Program-made: the position numbers and the translations under genes | Assembly (NCBI GenBank): GCA_003232015.1 | Contig: QIKU01000040.1 | Span: forward strand, 1-5,289 | Length of the DNA stretch: 5,289 nucleotides | Direction of reading: 5' to 3' | From: Gammaproteobacteria bacterium | GTDB lineage: Bacteria; Pseudomonadota; Gammaproteobacteria; UBA6429 | Shown here: piece by piece, positions 2,038-5,289 of the stretch | Numbering within the stretch: the stretch's first letter is position 1 | Layout: each line of letters begins with the position of its first letter | Notes under the pieces: generated by a model | The model's database searches: none | Seen by the model: the letters and a program-made list of their open reading frames with translations, nothing else | What the model was told of the DNA's origin: nothing

Positions 2038-2113
2038 GGCCGGATAGCTCAGTCGGTAGAGCAGAGGATTGAAAATCCTCGTGTCCCTGGTTCGATTCCA
2101 GGTCCGGCCACCA
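2038..2113 (+). tRNA. tRNA-Phe, anticodon GAA
   Basis: This is a complete 76-nt cloverleaf: acceptor GGCCGGA / TCCGGCC (7 bp), D stem GCTC/GAGC, anticodon stem GAGGA/TCCTC with loop TTGAAAA (anticodon GAA, reads UUC/UUU), a 5-nt variable loop, T stem CCTGG/CCAGG with loop TTCGATT, discriminator A and an encoded CCA. All stems pair perfectly, so the gene is functional. It follows yggX, a common gammaproteobacterial order, and its 3' half is the attachment site of the island that begins immediately after it. No clear terminator follows the CCA, so read-through into the island is possible. Confidence 0.98.
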
Positions 2114-2115
2114 TT
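2085..2115 (+). repeat. attL: 31-bp att core at the 3' end of tRNA-Phe
   Basis: The stretch from CCCTGG of the T arm through CCACCATT is repeated without a mismatch at 3314-3344. Upstream of the core, similarity extends to 2064 with three mismatches in 52 positions. T-arm-to-CCA cores of this kind are standard for tyrosine integrases that use tRNA genes and leave the tRNA intact. Confidence 0.9.
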
Positions 2116-2170
2116 AATTCTATAAAAATCAATATCTTGTAAACTCACTTTACAACACCCCAACCTTAAA

Positions 2171-2189
2171 AGTACAGTAAAGGTACACT
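2171..2189 (+). promoter_or_regulatory. Candidate integrase arm-type sites, left end
   Basis: AGTACAGT (2171-2178) and GGTACACT (2182-2189) are direct repeats 11 bp apart, about one helical turn. They begin 56 bp inside the end of the attL core. The same pair, in the same orientation and with the same 11-bp phasing, occurs at the right end (3243-3261). Integrase arm sites typically look like this. The function is inferred from position and symmetry. Confidence 0.6.
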
Positions 2190-2224
2190 CGCAAATTTCG
2201 AGGTAGGCTTAATATGGCCAATGA

Positions 2225-2470
2225 GTGGGCCATGTTTTTCAATCAAATATTCAACAGTTGCACTTGTCATTGCGAACCTCACAAAGTAGTCAGGCCACAA
2301 ATTTTCATCTTCATTACGAAGATAAGGCTCGTATGTCGCTTATAACCTTTATAACCTTTGCGATGGGCTCTCGCCCACAAACAAATAATGCTTATAAGTT
2401 TACGAAAATATACAAATCGTGGACAATGTCAACTAAGGTACAAATGAATAAGAAGGAAATGCAAGCATAA
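2225..2470 (+). CDS. Doubtful small ORF upstream of the island gene
   Basis: This frame could give 81 residues from ATG 2225, or 45 from ATG 2333 (MSLITFITFAMGSRPQ). Its stop shares one base with the start of the next gene (TAATG at 2468-2472), the arrangement expected for translational coupling. Against it: there is no ribosome site at 2225 and only a weak AAGG before 2333, the composition is not protein-like, and no domain is recognisable. It is best regarded as a leader region that may or may not be translated. The rest of 2116-2469 holds only the arm sites and a small 5-bp hairpin (TGGGC, TCTC loop, GCCCA; about 2364-2377). Confidence 0.2.
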   Translation: MGHVFQSNIQQLHLSLRTSQSSQATNFHLHYEDKARMSLITFITFAMGSRPQTNNAYKFTKIYKSWTMSTKVQMNKKEMQA

Positions 2471-3033
2471 TGGAACACCCACCGTTTTTTGTTCATAAAG
2501 ATGAGCGATATGATCTAACTCATCTTCAGCCTTTTATGTTTAACCTCACTCTTCAAGCACATAAGTCTAACCCTGAATTGGAAATATCATTACGTGTTGA
2601 ATTTACAAATCATTGTTATACCGAGGGAGCAGCTCAAGACGTTACTGAATTGAATGGTGCCTCATATGATGAAGTTGATCACTATGGATGGCCGCGATGG
2701 TATAACACACAGAGATACAATACTTCTTTGTTGTTACCTGGATTTATAAGACAAATACATACAAAAAAATGCCTATTCACTAAGAAACAAAACTGGTTAA
2801 TTATTGAATTAGAGGAAGAGGGTGGGGCTACTGTCCCGTTCTACCTTATCTTTTCAATATGGGTACATAAAAAACAGGAAAATAGCTTAGGGCTTCGCAT
2901 AGTAAGCGCTTATAAGAAGACAAAGGGAGATAATGCCCCTCAGAGGGGTCGTGGTATGGATCGCATTTCCTTTGCGATGCTCGCACGAAAGACGCTTGCT
3001 GGCGTAGCCATAAAACGACCAAGAAGAAGATAA
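2470..3033 (+). CDS. Island cargo protein of unknown function (187 aa)
   Basis: This is the only convincing gene of the mini-island. ATG 2470 has AAGGA at 2453-2457 (12 nt, a long spacing), which may be helped by coupling to the upstream frame. No signal peptide or membrane segment is seen, so a cytoplasmic protein is expected. Motifs in order are VEFTNHCYT (43-51), an aromatic stretch RWYNTQRYNTSLLLPGFI (76-93), CLFTKKQNWLIIELEEE (101-117), a hydrophobic strand FYLIFSIW (124-131), LGLRIVSAYKK (140-150), ISFAMLARKTLAG (166-178) and a very basic tail KRPRRR. The order of an FxxHxxT-like motif, Arg/Tyr-rich centre, strand and SAY resembles, from memory, a family of uncharacterised accessory-genome proteins. 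The pattern of strands ending in a conserved SAY also recalls small RNase folds of the barnase/RelE group, but that is speculation. Roles in defence or element stability are possible and unproven. Confidence 0.8.
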   Translation: MEHPPFFVHKDERYDLTHLQPFMFNLTLQAHKSNPELEISLRVEFTNHCYTEGAAQDVTELNGASYDEVDHYGWPRWYNTQRYNTSLLLPGFIRQIHTKKCLFTKKQNWLIIELEEEGGATVPFYLIFSIWVHKKQENSLGLRIVSAYKKTKGDNAPQRGRGMDRISFAMLARKTLAGVAIKRPRRR

Positions 3034-3046
3034 TCACACATAAAAA

Positions 3047-3068
3047 AAGCCTCCTAAAAAGGAGGCTT
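3047..3068. terminator. Bidirectional intrinsic terminator after the cargo gene
   Basis: AAGCCTCC and GGAGGCTT form a perfect 8-bp stem around a TAAAAA loop, 13 nt after the stop of the 2470-3033 gene. On the plus strand it is followed by ATAATT, a weak U-tract. On the minus strand the same hairpin is followed by seven Ts, so it would stop leftward transcripts more strongly. It would shield the cargo gene from antisense transcription entering from the right. Confidence 0.8.
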
Positions 3069-3073
3069 ATAAT
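3068..3073 (+). promoter_or_regulatory. Perfect -10 box just before the candidate RNA
   Basis: TATAAT at 3068-3073 matches the consensus exactly and would start transcription near 3080, where the structured block begins. No -35 match exists at the right spacing (3045-3050 is AAAAGC), because that stretch is the terminator stem. An activator-dependent or weak promoter is possible, and so is chance in AT-rich DNA. Confidence 0.35.
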
Positions 3074-3078
3074 TAAGT

Positions 3079-3153
3079 CGGGGGGCTCTTGATTATCCCA
3101 GATCGCCTGGAACCCTTTCGGGCGGCAAGTGAACATCGTTTTCACGATCCCCG
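3079..3153 (+). ncRNA. Candidate structured RNA, C4-antisense-like
   Basis: This 75-nt GC-rich block stands out from its AT-rich surroundings. On paper it folds into a branched structure. The outer stem is CGGG (3079-3082) with CCCG (3150-3153). Next comes a single-stranded 5' stretch, then GATCG (3101-3105) with CGATC (3145-3149). That stem encloses a hairpin CCC-TTTC-GGG (3113-3122) and a hairpin TGAA/TTCA (3130-3133 / 3141-3144). The segment GGGCGGCAAGTGAACAT (3120-3136) recalls, from memory, the conserved part of the C4 antisense RNAs of phages P1/P7, which silence an antirepressor gene. I cannot check this match here. No T-run follows 3153, so the 3' end is undefined. No protein on either strand explains the conservation-like look of the block. 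Confidence 0.4.
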
Positions 3154-3167
3154 TATATGTCCACCTA

Positions 3168-3201
3168 ATGTAATTATAGCAAAGTTTGTGTACTATTACA
3201 T
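3168..3201. repeat. Inverted repeat ATGTAAT / ATTACAT
   Basis: Two 7-bp arms (3168-3174 and 3195-3201) are separated by 20 bp between the candidate RNA and the right arm sites. It could be an operator or an accessory-protein site of the island end. In AT-rich DNA a chance occurrence is also plausible. Confidence 0.3.
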
Positions 3202-3213
3202 GATAAAAACAAA

Positions 3214-3283
3214 CAACATGTGAAGTAAGCTACCAAAAATCAGGTACACTCAAGGTACAGTGCTCATATTTGCTAACATGTTG
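3214..3283. repeat. CAACATGT / ACATGTTG inverted repeat flanking the right arm sites
   Basis: CAACATGT (3214-3221) and its exact reverse complement ACATGTTG (3276-3283) bracket the two arm-type repeats at 3243-3261. The centre of the inverted repeat falls close to the arm pair. Placement at an att arm would suit an excisionase or bending-protein site. No equivalent was seen at the left end. Confidence 0.35.
3243..3261 (+). promoter_or_regulatory. Candidate integrase arm-type sites, right end
   Basis: GGTACACT (3243-3250) and GGTACAGT (3254-3261) are direct repeats 11 bp apart, ending 52 bp before the attR core. They match the left pair (2171-2189) in sequence, orientation, phasing and distance to the core. 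In a circular form the two pairs would flank a single att core, as in an integrase attP. Confidence 0.6.
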
Positions 3284-3292
3284 ATTTTAAAC

Positions 3293-3342
3293 GAGAATTG
3301 AAAACCCTCGTGCCCCTGGTTCGATTCCAGGTCCGGCCACCA
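3293..3342 (+). pseudogene. 3' fragment of tRNA-Phe at the right island end
   Basis: This segment corresponds to tRNA-Phe from the anticodon stem to CCA. It differs from the intact gene at 3296 (G to A), 3305 (T to C) and 3313 (T to C). The first two changes break two pairs of the anticodon stem (GAGAA against CCCTC), while the anticodon loop TTGAAAA is kept. There is no acceptor 5' strand or D arm, so it cannot make a tRNA. It is the duplicate left by site-specific integration. Confidence 0.9.
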
Positions 3343-3344
3343 TT
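3314..3344 (+). repeat. attR: 31-bp att core
   Basis: This is an exact copy of 2085-2115 covering the T arm, the acceptor 3' strand, CCA and two further bases. Divergence from the left copy begins one base upstream (3313) and one base downstream (3345). It marks the right boundary of the 1,229-bp unit. Confidence 0.9.
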
Positions 3345-3934
3345 TTCAATATCACTTCCCACAAACGCTATTTAATAATAATTTTGTAATCTTGCTTTTA
3401 ATATGCAAACAACTCCTGCAAAGCATTGCATAACTGGGTAGCTCCCCATCATGAGACCGAATATACGTACGCTAACATAAAGTCCAGTAACGGGGGTTTT
3501 TAATGTGAACTATCAAAAGGAGTCAGTCTGATTAATTTATCATAATAACTGCAATTTTTTATTGCATTACTTGAGGAGTCCATAGTACAGGCTACACCTT
3601 TCACTTTTTATATCTACGCAGCAAGCTGCGGGGAATTGAACCCAAAACGATTAATAGCATCTATTTTAGCCAATATTACTCGTTATGCTTTTATGTTCTC
3701 AGTAAAATTATATAACCGCTATAGTATAATTTTTCCAACCTAACGGCTAACTCTTGCTCTAATTGAGTAATTTAATTAAACATGCCCCGTTTACATTAAT
3801 TTGGTATTAACTTACAGAATGATCAAGAGATCTAACATCCATATAAAATCATAAGATACTGATATTTATATGTTTTTATATTTTAGATAACTTAGCTAGC
3901 CCCTAATAATCAAAACCCAATCAAGAGCTGGATT
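3345..3934. other. AT-rich stretch without a gene
   Basis: No frame with a start, a ribosome site and protein-like composition is seen on either strand across these 590 bases. Contents worth noting are a G5T5 run at 3493-3502 without a matching stem, a hairpin TGCAAT-TTTTT-ATTGCA (3550-3566), a REP-like hairpin (3617-3630), and the inverted repeat around the pseudogene's 3' end (from 3922). Purine-rich GGAG tracts at about 3521 and 3574 are not followed by usable start codons. Confidence 0.6.
3617..3630. repeat. REP-like hairpin CGCAGC-AA-GCTGCG
   Basis: A perfect 6-bp GC-only stem with a 2-nt loop is set in AT-rich DNA and followed by GGGAATTGAACCC. Read on the minus strand, it gives a CCCCGCAGCTTGCTGCG core, a layout I associate with REP sequences that are mobilised by RAYT-type TnpA-REP transposases in various proteobacteria. 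Only a single copy is visible here. Confidence 0.45.
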
Positions 3935-3966
3935 TTATGCCCAATTAGGCAAATACCCAGCTCTTG
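3922..3966 (-). terminator. 10-bp inverted repeat straddling the pseudogene stop codon
   Basis: CAAGAGCTGG (3922-3931) and CCAGCTCTTG (3957-3966) are exact reverse complements around a 25-nt loop that contains the stop codon (3937-3935) and a small inner stem TGCC/GGCA. On the minus strand the stem is followed by ATTGGGTTTTG, a poor U-tract. It could act as a terminator or mRNA 3' stabiliser of the broken gene, although a stem that starts inside the coding sequence is unusual. Confidence 0.4.
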
Positions 3967-5203
3967 GATGCTCAGGATCTGCAAGCTTAATCCACCCTTC
4001 CTTTTGTGCTGTTTTGAGCACTTGAGATGCTTGAGCGGCATTTTTGCTATCAATACCAAATCGTTCACACAAACTCGAATTCTTCATTCTCTCACCACTG
4101 AGGTATTTTATAACTGCATGCTGGAAACATGCACGTACTCGTTCAGCCACAGTCATTTTTGCAAAAGGGCGAGGCCCATATAAAATGACCTGCATAGAGT
4201 TTTCATCAGCTTGGAACTTTGGTGGTGGTAATTGATATAACTCAACATGAACAATCACCTTATCTAACCCGCTACCCTGTTCTTCACAAATTGCCATACG
4301 TCTCATTAAAGATGCCAAGGCTTCATTACGAGAGCGCGGTGGTAGATCAATCATCCGATCAATTTGTACCAATGGCTTACCTGGATTGGTAATTTCAATT
4401 CGATCACTAAATAATTCAACTTGTGGGTCGGCTCCACTGATAGTCATGTCTTGGTGAATCAAAGCATTGGCAATCAACTCTCGAATAGCCAATTCAGGGA
4501 ATAGCGGTTGAGACTCACGGAAAGCCGCCCCTATATGTTCGTTCTGAGGTAGGAGACTGTTAATAGCTCACAAGACCCTCAAAGCCCGTAGCGTAGCCCT
4601 TTTTACCATCTTGACGGTGCGTTACCGTCGATGCCTTATTATTCCCTTCATAAGCAATAAAGCGAACCGATTTTTGAGAAATTGCAGAATCAAATTGAGT
4701 TAAATCAGATGCAAATAAAATCGCACCCAAATTTGAAATATCCCAGCGCCCACCAACATCTTTTGAAATAAGCTGTTCAGCACTAAGTAACTCAAAAATA
4801 CCGGCACGATTATCCGGTAACCGTTGATCAGTCAGTTTGAAGTAACTAGGGTAGTCCAGAAGTTTTAAAACATCGTCTTCAGTTAAAAAAGACTTCGCTA
4901 TGCCTTTTTCCCACGAACAAGCTCGGATCTTATCAATCAACTTTTGGAAGTATTCTGGATATTCTGACAACTTAGGAGTAGCACTGCCAATTCTGACAAA
5001 AGCTGTACCTTCATATTCAATAGGTGCCGAGGTCGCTGCAGGAATTTCCAAAATAATAACAGTTCCATCAGGATGTTCTACCTTTCTAAACGAAAAGGAA
5101 ATACTCGGATTTAGCCTCTGCGCTAACCAAATATGCAAACCTTGATTGCCAACTTTAACGCTATCAGGGTCAAAACTTGTACCCACAACCGCATGATCAG
5201 CAA
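3935..5203 (-). pseudogene. AlbA_2 / GHKL-type ATP-binding protein, frameshifted and 5'-truncated
   Basis: Two adjoining frames read as one protein of the AlbA_2 (DUF294-like 'RecG-related', putative nucleic-acid- and ATP-binding) family. Part one (5203-4563) has DHAVVGTSFDPDSVKVGNQG and YEGTAFVRIGSATPKL, the end of the AlbA_2 domain, and runs to GFEGLVSY, where TAA (4562-4560) stops it. Part two (4561-3935) resumes with NSLLPQNEHIGAAFR, then PELAIRELIANALIHQD (ATPase N-box-like), RIEITNPGKPL, EEQGSGLDKVI, and a winged-helix-like tail with GERMKNSSLCERFGID ending AGYLPNWA. Comparing the join with the family pattern (LVxYINxLLPxNEHIG) points to loss of two bases in a TATATT run. The N-terminal part of AlbA_2 is missing: the frame enters a REPIN at 5204 and hits TGA at 5246-5244. 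Such proteins often sit in islands, sometimes next to defence genes. The rest of the sequence is well preserved, so decay is recent. Confidence 0.85.
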
Positions 5204-5282
5204 GTAGCCCGGATGGAATAAAATGCAATCCGGGAAGCAGCCCTCAACCTTCCCGGATTTCGCTTCGCTGCATCCAGGCTAC
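5204..5282. repeat. REPIN: two inverted REP sequences
   Basis: The 79-bp palindromic unit starts GTAGCC and ends GGCTAC. It consists of two 33-nt REPs (5204-5236 and 5250-5282) in inverted orientation around a 13-nt centre. Each REP has the outer block GTAGCC(C/T)GGATG and the inner block AATCCGGGAA. The outer blocks differ at one base, the inner blocks are identical, and the 11 nt between them are unrelated. This is the structure of REPINs spread by RAYT (TnpA-REP) transposases. It lies at the 5' end of the AlbA_2-type gene and puts a stop (5246-5244, minus strand) in its frame, so it probably interrupted the gene. Only 7 bases remain beyond it, too few to see whether the gene continues. Confidence 0.85.
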
Positions 5283-5289
5283 GTACTAC

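Follow-up and report, generated by a model that had tools for sequence, protein, structure and literature searches.

The window analysed here, a stretch of 5,289 nucleotides from contig QIKU01000040.1 of a gammaproteobacterial assembly (GCA_003232015.1), carries a small inserted unit at its tRNA-Phe gene. The gene, with anticodon GAA, occupies positions 2038-2113 (ARAGORN call; Rfam tRNA, 72.4 bits), and the unit extends from about 2064 to 3344, its interior measuring 1,179 bp from the end of the tRNA to the second copy of the core repeat. The features of the locus are as follows:

2038..2113, plus strand: tRNA-Phe (GAA), the integration target (ARAGORN, Rfam tRNA)
2064..2115, plus strand: att core copy at the left end (attL), within tRNA-Phe (direct repeat D1)
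2172..2187, plus strand: left paired arm-like repeat GTACA-N6-GTACA (putative arm site)
2470..3033, plus strand: cargo gene, 187 amino acids, PF27200 label from the protein database (open reading frame, relatives, AlphaFold2)
3047..3164, minus strand: predicted small RNA, convergent with the cargo gene (conservation and fold; covariation in plasmid relatives only)
3164-3157 with 3136-3129, minus strand: predicted 5' stem of the RNA; 3153-3149 with 3083-3079, predicted pseudoknot strands
3047..3068, minus strand: terminator hairpin followed by a T-run (hairpin test)
3244..3259, plus strand: right paired arm-like repeat GTACA-N6-GTACA (putative arm site)
3293..3344, plus strand: att core copy at the right end (attR), the displaced tRNA-Phe 3' end (direct repeat D1)

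The unit and its ends

The two core copies form a direct repeat of 52 nt with 94% identity and a start-to-start spacing of 1,229, the final 31 nt of both copies (2085-2115 and 3314-3344) being a perfect match. This bears out, and lengthens, the 31-bp perfect duplication of the tRNA-Phe 3' end at the same spacing that a preliminary description of the window had reported; judged from the sequence, chance is excluded as the origin of a 52-nt direct repeat at a tRNA 3' end. That description had also called both ends apparently complete, a view that gains support from the GTACA pairs, which are the only two such word pairs in the window (spacing 10-12, both strands); the left pair starts 59 bp from its end of the unit and the right pair 48 bp from the other. 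Paired arm sites are commonly found in the attP of tyrosine integrases. The locus can be read as 1.2 kb of foreign DNA inserted into a tRNA gene, its two recombination ends seemingly intact.

No recombinase was detected in the unit, serine recombinases being checked solely through Pfam on the listed open reading frames (ORFs), and tblastn with 12 integrases of relatives' tRNA-Phe islands revealed no tyrosine recombinase remnant in the interior at E<=0.05. Between the core copies lies a single clear ORF (2470-3033), the remaining listed ORFs there being shorter than 100 amino acids.

Cargo protein and predicted convergent RNA

The 187-residue cargo protein yielded an AlphaFold2 model with a predicted local distance difference test (pLDDT) score of 85.4 and had no Pfam or PHROG match at E<=1; no sequence relation to known toxins was detected. 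Its PF27200 relatives in the protein database were recovered in overlapping sets of 14 (first search), 26 (profile) and 23 (divergent profile), with a Methylococcales metagenome-assembled genome (MAG), Sphingobium algorifonticola and a Brevundimonas as named sources. Using three PF27200 members as tblastn queries, 69, 153 and 86 plasmid records were matched, again with overlap, in hosts including Pseudomonas, Xanthomonas, Enterobacter and Klebsiella. Among the matches listed, the plasmid proteins are mostly annotated as 'hypothetical protein', and the host plasmids are of differing replicon types (IncP, ColRNAI and others; PLSDB typing). Two loci were found on genome contigs, one in a MAG labelled Anaerolineae (L001) and one in Sphingobium (L002). 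The genes near the L001 copy look like type I restriction genes; a near-perfect loopless palindrome at the contig end (1-64) is perhaps an assembly artefact, and the contig may be misbinned.

The window cargo protein itself had no relative in genome or viral contigs, the PF27200 profile matched nothing in viral contigs, and an alphaproteobacterial relative gave no match in phage records. Against the sequences of solved structures, the profile reached one chain at E 0.26, which was not used. When the whole unit was compared with plasmids and phages by blastn, the matches listed covered nothing but the tRNA end, its final 46-47 bases.

Directly past the stop codon, the sequence is conserved between the window and L001, and most shuffles fold less well than this stretch does on either strand (z -2.3 to -3.6). 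The sequence past the PF27200 stop codon was read in the window, L001, L002 and 17 further loci on plasmids, chosen from the listed matches, 20 in all. Of these, 18 (the window plus 17 of its 19 relatives) show, no more than 60 nt from the stop codon, a minus-strand hairpin with a T-run behind it; for each locus 1-17 of 60 shuffles also pass this test, so that a single match is weak.

The RNA aligns well across nine plasmid loci, with alignment anchors chosen by eye, and the loop of its 5' hairpin pairs with a downstream strand, forming a pseudoknot, alongside three more helices. All 195 of 195 cells of this structure are paired; 10 of 22 pairs are changed on both sides, compared with a shuffle mean of 4.5 and with 0 of 500 shuffles reaching 10, and sliding the partner strand by 1-3 columns reduces pairing to 25-42%. 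A model derived from the nine RNAs finds the Sphingobium locus (L005:2041-2185, E 6e-4). For the window RNA, an unguided search recovered the same topology in other letters, GTGGACAT/ATGTTCAC together with CGGGG/CCCCG, and 0 of 40 shuffles were as good; applied to the plasmid-type loci, it found the shared stem and a CCGGA/TCCGG pair in 8 of 9, where 1-10 of the 40 shuffles did equally well. No Rfam family covers the window RNA or the plasmid RNAs, a sub-threshold Phe_leader match at 3040-3097 overlaps the terminator, and the exact RNA motif does not occur in viral contigs.

Several observations limit the reading as an RNA gene or weigh against it. The pseudoknot helix itself is invariant within the nine-plasmid set, which includes three close kin of the P. 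syringae group and two close enterobacterial kin, and one of five covariation measures (further pair types, 13 versus 13.6) is not above shuffles. The unguided search beat all 40 shuffles in the window only, gave a shifted pair in L067 and another best structure in L001, and returned no structure in L072, L073 and L077. The nine-plasmid model misses the RNAs of the window, L001, L064, L068, L070-L073, L077 and L079, and no promoter-like match was found for the predicted RNA.

It is also conceivable, though we consider it quite improbable, that the structure past the cargo gene is a DNA element, such as a replication origin or a packaging or recombination signal. The PF27200 family is common on plasmids, the candidate helper described below is of a single-stranded-DNA phage type, and a plus-strand terminator-like hairpin passes the same test in 7 of the 20 loci; these points are set against the minus-strand hairpin and T-run seen in 18, weak as each match is, and the differing replicon types of the host plasmids. 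The minus-strand RNA, running from about 3164 down to 3047, is likely a second gene of the unit. The preliminary description, which counted one gene and no recombinase, holds for the clear ORF and for the lack of a detected recombinase, and missed this likely second gene. On the minus strand past the PF27200 gene, the plasmid loci L063-L079, from several genera, carry a covarying pseudoknotted RNA without an Rfam match.

Other units at tRNA-Phe and a candidate helper

The window was compared with genomes of the same order, which here means the order of the best mutY matches (the order of G195), because those matches reach 57% identity to the mutY gene of the window. The tRNA-Phe 3'-end pattern matched 252 of 293 genomes. 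Units were defined by extra same-strand 3'-end copies on one contig, and their DNA was read, apart from the 68-kb G472 unit and the distal portions of the G124 (35 kb) and G408 (31 kb) units; copies on the opposite strand or another contig were followed only for G426 (L085, L086). Seven units of 0.8-3.6 kb were found in four of the 293 genomes: G140 (1,747 bp), G430 (2,367 bp), G429 (3,603 bp) and G401 (1,108, 801, 852 and 1,073 bp). No intact tyrosine recombinase was detected in any of the seven, serine recombinases not being searched for. The ORFs of the G140 unit are BrnT-like and CopG-antitoxin-like, both under the Pfam cut-off, with an HNH above it.

The four small G401 units belong to a tandem array (L044) of six clear tRNA-Phe 3'-end copies and a seventh, with 5 mismatches, that splits a 15.1-kb part. 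Their cargo comprises an NYN-domain gene in one unit, ParE with a ParD-like partner in another, a Gp49-like gene with a helix-turn-helix (HTH) partner, and a Gp49-like gene with an antidote-type partner. A right end of 72-78 bp (blastn, 74-85% identity) is common to G401 units 2-5 and the G526 unit; in G401 unit 1 it was seen by eye only, and G426 also has it. Of four PF00589 matches in G401, three are above the cut-off and none lies within the array. The long middle part of L044 (2129 to 17247, reverse strand) contains, by eye, pyrroloquinoline quinone (PQQ) biosynthesis and transporter genes, together with the mismatched core copy and a right-end-like stretch without a core.

Among the larger units, an integrase-like ORF was found by blastp in G356, G567, G491, G520, G459, G421, G527, G408, the 12-kb G472 unit, G320 (two copies) and, weakly, G324 (E 5e-6), and by another search in G284; the matches in the G474 and G454 units are weak and partial. 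No tyrosine integrase was detected in the 8.9-kb G526 unit or in the long stretch at the middle of the G401 array, no integrase was found in the part of the G124 unit that was read, and a 3.9-kb G571 unit, which came from a separate family search, had no detected tyrosine recombinase. Two candidates, G343 (1,863 bp) and G317 (326 bp), were dropped since the second copy is a complete tRNA-Phe gene, as were close same-strand pairs about 100-170 bp apart, which were taken as tandem tRNA genes (not each read). In L059 (G320), two tandem 7.4-kb integrase-bearing units are 100% identical, representing either a recent duplication or an assembly artefact.

These units bear on a second account of the window, in which a larger integrase-bearing tRNA-Phe island lost its middle, leaving both ends, the gene and the RNA, now fixed. 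G430 provides such a case at the same site: its 2.4-kb unit (L035) matches the ends of the 12-kb G472 island (L056) in one stretch of 411 bp (78% identity), which includes a truncated tyrosine recombinase, and in another of 85 bp (82%). By its sequence, the G430 unit is a true deletion remnant; as other units show no integrase trace, both kinds occur at the tRNA-Phe site. The window unit has no integrase remnant, and four tandem G401 mini-units with different cargo are hard to explain as independent deletions.

The paired repeats point to one other unit in particular. Among 27 other tRNA-Phe units (L061, L062 and L086 incomplete in view), only L055, from genome G527, has a GTACA pair at both ends; it contains exactly two, 74 and 109 bp from its ends. 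Units L047 and L054 have one pair each, with spacing 12 and 10, neither being paired at both ends, and the remaining 24 have none; control DNA of 300,901 bases around the tRNA-Phe of relatives (L028-L043) contains one. At 10.7 kb, L055 has above-cut-off matches to Phage_integrase and Zot and a weak one to Rep_trans, and is therefore read as an inovirus-like prophage or island with an integrase; relatives of that integrase were not found in viral contigs. Since the same GTACA pairs lie at the ends of both units, an L055-type integrase could act on the window unit, making an integrase-bearing island of this type a plausible helper.

L055 also lends the deletion account a larger integrase-bearing island with the same kind of ends; the window unit, however, shares with it only short repeats, no other common DNA being found by blastn at E<=1e-3. 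We regard a deletion origin as possible, at less than even chance. The preliminary description had named a larger integrase island between the same ends, with the unit as its deletion product, as evidence against its proposal and had suggested looking for these ends in relatives. The search recovered one of the 27 units, L055; a larger island with similar ends exists, but its interior shares no detectable DNA with the unit. The right end and core pattern of the window unit matches one of 390 genomes of the order, again G527, and therefore the class recurs, not this particular element. The earlier expectation of recurrence accordingly holds for small integrase-less tRNA-Phe units, a tandem array included, and not for this right end, seen elsewhere only in G527.

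Interpretation and comparison with known systems

To the left of the unit lie mutY (534-1619), yggX (about 1616-1894; Pfam Iron_traffic) and then tRNA-Phe, which adjoins mutY in 16 of 22 relatives' loci of roughly 4 kb each. The T-arm of the window tRNA-Phe (CCTGG/CCAGG) is unlike those of 16 relatives compared. To the right, two pieces of one SLFN_AlbA_2 / HATPase_c_4-type gene with broken frames (3935-4492 and 4560-5228, minus strand) are possibly part of another island, and an imperfect 39-nt inverted repeat at 5199-5287 (74% complementary, arms 11 nt apart) is perhaps a dispersed repeat. Ordinary accretion, in which the unit belongs to a larger composite island and the integrase is encoded further right, past 5289, would fit this broken gene, the absence of any recognised chromosomal gene up to the window end, and the tandem islands at tRNA-Phe in G401, G320 and G472. 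We consider it somewhat unlikely, given that the window yielded no third core copy and 3345-5289 has no integrase match; it is in any case compatible with a helper acting in trans and would only place that helper nearby.

The evidence tips slightly towards a non-autonomous element, resembling a cis-mobilizable element (CIME), that depends on an integrase in trans and carries a PF27200 protein and a convergent RNA module as cargo. A tyrosine integrase of the L055 inovirus-like kind would have inserted the unit and could excise it. The two-part module, combining the protein with a probably pseudoknotted small RNA, may work like an RNA-controlled addiction or defence system and might thereby favour retention of a 1.2-kb element that is otherwise passive, a role that toxin-antitoxin pairs may have in the mini-units of relatives; an addiction or defence function remains a guess. 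The minimal satellite borrowing an integrase that was first proposed survives in the lack of a detected integrase, the arm-like ends and a candidate helper type in L055, while a satellite in the phage sense, with hijacking or packaging genes of its own, is not supported. A wider proposal, which we view as doubtful, is that tRNA genes act as integron-like platforms where integrase-less cassettes of one gene, complete in both att ends, are moved in trans by prophage integrases, filamentous ones among them, into tandem arrays, the window cassette being a new plasmid-spread class of RNA-protein addiction or defence module. Compared with an integron gene cassette, the junction repeat of the window unit is a tRNA 3' end.

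Type III toxin-antitoxin and AbiF-type systems likewise place a protein gene beside a structured RNA, pseudoknotted in ToxIN. In type III systems, antitoxin RNA repeats lie upstream of the toxin gene and are co-transcribed with it, and the RNA neutralises an endoribonuclease toxin; membership was rejected, the predicted RNA being single-copy, downstream and convergent. A phage-inducible chromosomal island (PICI) was rejected because the one ORF has no Pfam or PHROG match, so that no regulatory, replication or hijacking genes were detected, and a tycheposon, given as 4-200 kb with a tyrosine recombinase in PMC10872708, because the unit is 1.2 kb with no recombinase detected. The same paper describes flexible genomic islands in Methylophilaceae, termed 'additive', in which copies of a tRNA-Lys 3' end recur. 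The recurring tRNA 3'-end copies are alike, at tRNA-Phe here, whereas the window holds a single unit whose ends carry paired repeats. The tmRNA-targeted islands moved by a jumbo phage (PMC12595487) also occupy an RNA gene, have direct repeats on both sides and depend on a helper for transfer, but they differ from the window unit in encoding their own tyrosine integrase and spanning tens of kb. In Dehalococcoides, 15 ssrA islands without an integration module are reported (PMC3146451).

Inserts that lie between tRNA repeats and lack an integrase are commonly taken as decayed islands, the usual origin given for CIMEs. The 0.8-1.2-kb units of one array, with varied one-gene or toxin-antitoxin cargo and shared right ends, together with the paired ends in the window, suggest that a working non-autonomous class exists among such inserts and would be overlooked by surveys starting from an integrase; the paired-repeat match to L055 offers a testable helper. 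The PF27200 protein occurs with a covarying RNA that has no Rfam family on plasmids of Pseudomonas, Enterobacteriaceae and others, and this small structured RNA seems undescribed so far. Neither one-gene tRNA-Phe units of this kind nor this RNA were recognised in searches of the open-licence literature, where PF27200 was not found by name.

Among the closest known systems are CIMEs, defined in PMC5704250 as elements that keep attL and attR and have lost integration and transfer genes. The window unit, correspondingly, retains both ends at the sequence level (core repeat and paired repeats), encodes neither integration nor transfer genes that Pfam, PHROG or tblastn would reveal (serine recombinases through Pfam only), and may move with or by an element at the same site. 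It differs in being 1.2 kb long with one protein gene and no sign of a decayed integrative and conjugative element (ICE) or integrative and mobilizable element (IME) inside, and its paired repeats resemble those of the inovirus-like island rather than those of an ICE or IME. The CIME idea is known; what is new is a very small unit whose two ends each carry a paired repeat and for which a helper type can be proposed.
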